DNA of 64,000 nucleotides from Thermoproteota archaeon (GTDB taxonomy: Archaea > Thermoproteota > Nitrososphaeria > Nitrososphaerales > Nitrosopumilaceae). The DNA lies in NCBI GenBank assembly GCA_003352285.1, contig QQVN01000005.1:186001-250000 (forward strand). Direction: 5' to 3'. Numbering within the stretch: position 1 is the stretch's first letter; each line of letters begins with the position of its first letter. Below are positions 27,641 through 28,118 of this stretch, in pieces. Position numbers and translations under genes: made by a program. The notes below the pieces were generated by a model. That model searched no databases and was not told the origin of the DNA. It worked only from the letters and a program-made list of their open reading frames with translations.

Positions 27641-27710
27641 AATTAGTGCAATTGAGTCATTTTTGAGGTTTAGAATCATTTAATTTGCAATATTTTACGC
27701 ATAATCTCAT

Positions 27711-27805
27711 GCCGGGGTAGCTCAGCCTGGCCTAGAGTGCCAGCTTCTCCAAAGAAGGCAATACTCATAATCTGGAGGTCGTGGGTTCGAAACCCACCCC
27801 CGGCA
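27711..27805 (+). tRNA. tRNA-Met (elongator, CAT) with an anticodon-stem intron
   Basis: The mature tRNA is 76 nt: acceptor GCCGGGG/CCCCGGC, D-stem GCTC/GAGT, T-stem GTGGG/CCCAC and discriminator A, with anticodon CAT at 27766-27768. A 19-nt intron lies at 27744-27762, between positions 30 and 31 of the anticodon stem, not at the usual 37/38. Only removing it restores the 5-bp stem CCAGA/TCTGG. The flanks form a bulge-helix-bulge: central helix TGCC/GGCA, bulges AG^C and AT^A, inner helix TTCT/AGAA with loop CCAA, outer GAG/CTC. CCA is not encoded. Confidence 0.92.
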
Positions 27806-28118
27806 TTACAAGCTACCACATAGAAAAATAATCCTCATACCGGAACGAATGTCCAAAAATCGGTATTGGTTTTTGTTAGGATCTTAGAACTAAAACTGTA
27901 CAGTTTTTTGCTTATTGTTTAGAGTTTTCTGCCTTTTTTTCAGTTGTTTCTTTGTTGTTTTTTTTCAGTTTTGAAAAGATGTTTTTGAACATAGGGCTAC
28001 AATCAATGACCCAAATATAAGGCAAGGAATTAGCTTTTTACAACTCAAGCACTCAATAAAAAATGAACGAGAACCAGTAGCTACCTCTTATTTAGACGAA
28101 AAATCATGAGAGAGGTAC
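27806..28118. other. 313-nt gap with no firm gene
   Basis: This stretch separates tRNA-Met from malic enzyme. I see a weak inverted repeat (ATACCG at 27837 and CGGTAT at 27861), T-rich runs that may end the tRNA transcript, and a 26-codon minus-strand frame (27912-27992) beginning MFKNIFSKLKK. None is strong enough to call as a gene. The 3' part presumably holds the malic-enzyme promoter. Confidence 0.5.

Follow-up and report, generated by a model that had tools for sequence, protein, structure and literature searches.

Gene structure and intron boundary

The window, a 64,000-nucleotide stretch from an ammonia-oxidizing-type archaeon, carries an elongator tRNA-Met(CAU) gene on its forward strand at positions 27711–27805, interrupted by a short insertion in the anticodon stem. 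The Rfam tRNA model (RF00005) matches the same interval (27711–27805, + strand, 47.5 bits, above the gathering score). The gene and its precursor comprise the following features:

27679–27686, + strand: putative TATA-like element TTTAATTT at about −32 (sequence)
27711–27743, + strand: exon 1, tRNA positions 1–30 (Rfam match, splice arithmetic, ARAGORN on the spliced sequence)
27735–27766, + strand: predicted precursor bulge-helix-bulge (BHB), with outer helix of 3 bp, central helix of 4 bp and inner helix of 4 bp (pairing, BHB scan, central-helix covariation in relatives)
27744–27762, + strand: 19-nt non-canonical intron at position 30/31 (top strict-BHB excision in the gene, boundary shared by 147 of 163 related loci)
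27763–27805, + strand: exon 2, positions 31–73 (sequence, spliced ARAGORN call Met(cat))
27764–27770, + strand: anticodon loop CTCATAA, with anticodon CAT at 27766–27768 (sequence)

The exons supply an acceptor stem (GCCGGGG/CCCCGGC), a D stem (GCUC/GAGU) and a T arm (GUGGG UUCGAAA CCCAC), and the anticodon arm is split into CCAG, the 19 intervening nucleotides and A CUCAUAA UCUGG. The intron, CTTCTCCAAAGAAGGCAAT, lies between G30 and A31, with GCCAG immediately upstream and ACTCATAATCTGG downstream. Its register is unique and its site is other than 37/38; the junction cannot slide, because a shift of one base would place C at position 31 or T at position 30 and break a stem pair. Excision restores C27–G43, C28–G42, A29–U41, G30–C40 and A31–U39 as a regular anticodon arm and leaves a complete 76-nt tRNA, called Met(cat) by ARAGORN. 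A preliminary description had placed a 19-nt intron at 30/31 of a tRNA-Met and held that its removal alone restores the stem; position and length agree with the Rfam match, the sequence and the spliced call, and all five stem pairs return.

Transcription would proceed from the putative TATA-like site. Of 74 distinct upstream regions, 57 have a TTTAW motif between −45 and −20, which in 53 of them lies at −33 to −31 (raw counts).

Precursor structure

Among all strict-BHB excisions inside the gene, the one at 30/31 ranks first (3 outer, 4 central and 4 inner pairs), and of the four such excisions listed it alone yields Met(cat). The predicted motif has two 3-nt bulges on opposite strands of a 4-bp central helix (5′ bulge A29 G30/C1, 3′ bulge A18i U19i/A31, the slash marking the exon–intron boundary and i an intron base). 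The central pairs are U25–A17i, G26–C16i, C27–G15i and C28–G14i, the outer pairs G22–C34, A23–U33 and G24–C32, and the inner pairs, within the intron, U2–A13, U3–A12, C4–G11 and U5–A10. When the intron was shuffled 200,000 times, the central helix was kept in register in 0.5% of shuffles, and the central helix with three inner pairs in 0.0085%.

The minimum-free-energy fold of the isolated segment is a rival at −7.8 versus −4.8 kcal/mol for the BHB. The same program also fails on the cloverleaf of the spliced tRNA; because it misfolds the mature molecule, we gave its energies little weight and set thermodynamic folding aside as a test of the BHB.

Conservation in related archaea

A BLAST search with the gene gave matches in 95 of 101 genomes at E ≤ 0.001 (own genome included); some cover just a piece of the T arm and may stem from a different tRNA. 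Homologues were further sought with exon patterns allowing 1–31 nt (pattern 1) or 31–61 nt (pattern 2) between GCCNG and CTCATAA. Among 400 genomes of the order, pattern 1 had matches in 109, each with the intron; among 400 of the class it had matches in 124. Pattern 2 matched 66 of 120 same-family genomes that were at least 90% complete. Across those 120 genomes, 111 carry the 30/31 intron (66 long, 44 short and genome G438, tallied by hand from the pattern tables), none is intronless and nine yielded no recognizable gene with the exon patterns (G003, G035, G255, G265, G272, G283, G286, G289 and G298). The exact string CTCATAATCTGG is absent from eight of these nine; G298 has it, but the sequence around it is not readable as a tRNA.

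Of the 163 individual loci that were read, 147 share this intron boundary, five are intronless (L198–L202) and 11 lack the exon arrangement (L111, L178, L179, L180, L182, L183, L184, L187, L188, L189 and L190). Twelve loci failed a T-arm filter, and all of them except L111 were regained by an upstream-side filter. The 147 intron-bearing loci reduce to 84 distinct strings of exon 1 plus intron. Because most homologues were fetched by exon-anchored patterns or BLAST, exon conservation is partly by construction; the intron bases were unconstrained.

The intron also occurs in named records, among them Nitrosotalea devanaterra, Nitrosotalea bavarica, and MAGs of Nitrosopelagicus and Cenarchaeum, and a Nitrosopumilus strain (L126) has an intron identical to that of the window. 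These names point to Nitrosopumilaceae as the probable family of the window. Beyond the order, the intron is present in families f20 and f21; f22 has an 11-nt intron in some genomes, and five of its genomes have none. A probable homologue from f18 (L179) lacks the 30/31 intron and has insertions elsewhere (by eye). We do not claim universality across the order, since the exon patterns used recovered no readable elongator tRNA-Met from two of its large family groups, f8 and f10. The single f10 match (L205, on contig C61 of G142) has the same tRNA sequence and flanks as an f22 genome (G433, L204), so that contig is probably contamination.

The presence of the intron in 111 of 120 same-family genomes and 147 of 163 loci answers the proposal in the preliminary description that its conservation be checked in relatives, and we rejected a recent or genome-specific origin because the boundary is the same across relatives. 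The insertion is old, with one boundary shared by most same-family genomes examined and by several other families of the class.

Other families show further insertions in elongator tRNA-Met (by eye): a second one in the variable region (L185, L186, L110, L195–L197, L200–L204 and L208), one in the T loop (L105, L106, L109 and L210) and one near position 8 (L084, L107–L109, L210 and L211).

Covariation of the central helix

Aligned over the 84 distinct homologues, positions 25–28 and intron bases −6 to −3 pair in 333 of 336 cells, which count related sequences and not independent events, and all four central pairs are kept in 81 of 84 rows. Registers slid by −2, −1, +1, +2 and +3 gave 64, 137, 139, 145 and 104 of 336 pairing cells, and with shuffled introns all four pairs were kept in a mean of 0.74 and a maximum of 5 of the 84 rows. 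Position 25 and intron base −3 form U–A in 56 homologues and C–G in 26, with one C–A and one C–U counted as broken; at position 26 the pair is G–C in 54 and G–U in 30. The rival minimum-energy fold relies on U25–A31, which would become a C·A mismatch in the 28 of 84 homologues that have C25.

Immediately past the 5′ bulge, the inner helix measures 0, 1, 2, 3 and 4 bp in 7, 44, 24, 6 and 3 of the 84 homologues, so many relatives have relaxed motifs; that of the window has 4 bp. Intron length ranges from 11 to 87 nt. The shortest introns, of 11–12 nt, are in L071, L072 and L073 (from g5, in genomes of about 0.8 Mb) and in a named record, L144; those of L071 and L144 are 11 nt. In these four the inner helix is little or none, and the 5′ splice site would consequently fall in a loop.

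We regard the comparative evidence for the central helix as decisive: intron sequence and length drift while this helix is kept. The full BHB with a 4-bp central helix that had been described for the precursor is thus shown as a possible and covarying structure, formable in strict form, although the minimum-energy calculation does not choose it.

Identity as the elongator

Rfam returned 40 tRNA matches over the cut-off, and 44 at E ≤ 10, in the genome, which is 99.64% complete. Three of the 40 have a CAT anticodon: the window gene, L016 and L040. The acceptor stem of L016 resembles that of tRNA-Ile(GAT) (L028) and the genome encodes TiaS, by which we read L016 as Ile2-like. L040 we take to be of the initiator type, by the initiator features A1–U72 and three G–C pairs in the anticodon stem. 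By elimination among the three, the window gene, which has neither initiator nor Ile2 features, would be the genome's only recognized elongator tRNA-Met(CAU).

The two other CAT tRNAs could suggest that the interrupted gene is a pseudogene or relic and that internal AUG codons are read by another tRNA, a prospect the preliminary description had tied to a different elongator elsewhere. No second elongator tRNA-Met was found in this genome by Rfam at E ≤ 10 (44 matches) or by pattern search, and L040 and L016 show the features of an initiator and an Ile2 tRNA, respectively. The exons are moreover strongly conserved, the BHB pairs covary in relatives and most relatives have the TATA-like motif at a fixed distance, all of which makes a relic highly improbable.

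Run on the unspliced gene, ARAGORN calls a tRNA-Gly (tcc) at 27710–27806, and a CUUCU/AGAAG hairpin is possible in the minimum-energy fold, as if this were an intronless or oddly looped tRNA-Gly(UCC) with the TCC inside the supposed intron as its anticodon. We rejected the call and find this reading scarcely credible: an ordinary tRNA-Gly(TCC) is present elsewhere in the genome (L007), about 20 bases would be left surplus, and homologues vary most in the supposed glycine anticodon arm, which is down to 11 nt in some, whereas CTCATAATCTGG is kept.

Splicing machinery

The genome that encodes this intron-bearing elongator has two EndA genes (PF01974), alpha (L041:1246–1782) and beta (L042:1234–1818), and an RtcB (599 bits). 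EndA alpha aligns with the alpha subunit of Aeropyrum pernix (3p1z_B) over residues 5–177 (E = 1.2e-40), with Y116, H124, K155 and K35 aligned to Y125, H133, K164 and K44; H133 and K44 are named in PMC6379350. In this alignment K35 is the lysine of the crenarchaea-specific loop, opposite Aeropyrum K44. EndA beta has Gly at the catalytic His and retains the Tyr and Lys. This matches the (alpha beta)2 pattern reported for thaumarchaea (PMC3218864 and PMC4090602).

The EndA type, which the preliminary description had named as a check, is therefore of the alpha plus beta kind, with a catalytic alpha and a beta without the catalytic His. That description had also stated that non-canonical introns need a broad-specificity endonuclease. 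The loop lysine is linked to broad specificity in PMC6379350. ‘Need’ is an overstatement, because the window copy is a strict BHB and such motifs, according to the same paper, are recognized by narrow endonucleases too. The case for a broad enzyme would be better made by the relatives with 11–12-nt introns and little or no inner helix.

Other apparently interrupted tRNA genes and mobile elements

Several further tRNA genes of this genome look interrupted. Strict-BHB excisions restore Val(CAC) (L027) on removal of 22 nt that follow the anticodon stem, Glu(TTC) (L215) on removal of 15 nt from the T arm and, at 37/38, Ile(GAT) (L028) and Tyr(GTA) (L032) on removal of 13 and 47 nt, respectively. 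Gln(CTG), Leu(CAA), Arg(CCT), Trp, Leu(TAA) and Ser(GGA) genes (L038, L039, L213, L214, L216 and L037) are apparently interrupted, some of them twice, and the Trp insertion contains box C/D-like motifs (by eye). The initiator tRNA-Met (L040; G000:C4:35168–35222, minus strand) has a D-arm insertion, the Rfam match covering only 10–63 at 31 bits. Removing about 15 nt leaves a normal D loop (by eye); the insertion boundaries are uncertain, as the strict-BHB scan gave no plausible excision. The 44 Rfam matches of the genome include neither Arg(TCG) nor Arg(CCG).

Genome G161 has two intron-bearing elongator tRNA-Met genes (L218:6755–7927 and L217:6606–6734). The copy adjoining a topoisomerase IB gene is truncated in the T arm; the intact copy has a Phage_integrase gene (PF00589, E = 1.2e-13) immediately after it. 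This arrangement is similar to the integrase-beside-tRNA case of Caldiarchaeum, linked to intron gain in PMC3293823. Assembly breaks often fall within or beside the tRNA-Met gene, at contig ends of G285, G306 and G315 (L219–L224) and in several named contigs, and could reflect strain-level insertions. Apparent duplicates, for example in G285, G306 and G315, look like one gene at two contig ends and were for that reason not counted as duplications.

Proposed pathway and relation to known systems

The locus is almost certainly the genome's only recognized elongator tRNA-Met(CAU), interrupted at 30/31 by an old 19-nt archaeal BHB intron that is predicted to be spliced by EndA and RtcB. Before splicing, positions 26–28 and the D stem's 3′ strand would pair with the intron end and C32-U33-C34 to form the strict BHB. 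By known pathways, cleavage at both 3-nt bulges would fall to the presumed heteromeric EndA that this genome encodes, and ligation of the exons by RtcB would re-form the anticodon stem. Because G22–G24 pair with C32–C34 in the precursor BHB, the D stem and anticodon loop would be barred from their final shape until the intron leaves.

More speculatively, and in our judgement improbably, the ancestor of much of the class Nitrososphaeria already had the 30/31 intron, and selection, not just inertia, has maintained it. Pairing of the 3′ strand of the D stem with C32-U33-C34 in the precursor could then serve as a checkpoint for folding or modification, and the intron could interact with mobile elements that target the tRNA gene. 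The thought of selection comes from the zero intronless copies among the 111 readable same-family genomes, though one family outside the order shows loss or absence.

The analysis corrects an annotation trap, in which an essential tRNA-Met gene is named tRNA-Gly by ARAGORN. It also provides a large natural alignment, in which the BHB central helix covaries through 84 distinct introns of 11 to 87 nt while the rest drifts. As the homologues span a full BHB to no inner helix, they could serve directly as substrates for probing what a heteromeric EndA that has the loop lysine is able to cut.

Our literature search, with GtRNAdb, SPLITSdb and supplements outside its scope, found no paper naming a 30/31 intron in the elongator tRNA-Met of this group. 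The kind of intron is already known. Position 30/31 is on a published list of non-canonical intron sites (PMC4090602), and tRNAscan-SE 2.0 has a BHB model trained on Thaumarchaeota, with 107 non-canonical introns in thaumarchaeal genomes (PMC8450103). The window intron is the same in kind as these archaeal and thaumarchaeal non-canonical BHB introns, with no difference; it is ordinary though ancient, since it fits the known archaeal splicing machinery and occupies the same site in most related archaea examined. Its best feature is the depth of its conservation. The split tRNA-Lys(CUU) of Nanoarchaeum and Staphylothermus has the same 30/31 exon junction, with an hBHBh′ motif (PMC3218864), but is assembled in trans from two separate genes, whereas the tRNA-Met of the window is one gene with an intron. 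With the alpha subunit of the (alpha beta)2 EndA of Aeropyrum pernix, the EndA alpha of this genome aligns over nearly its whole length and shares the catalytic triad and loop lysine.
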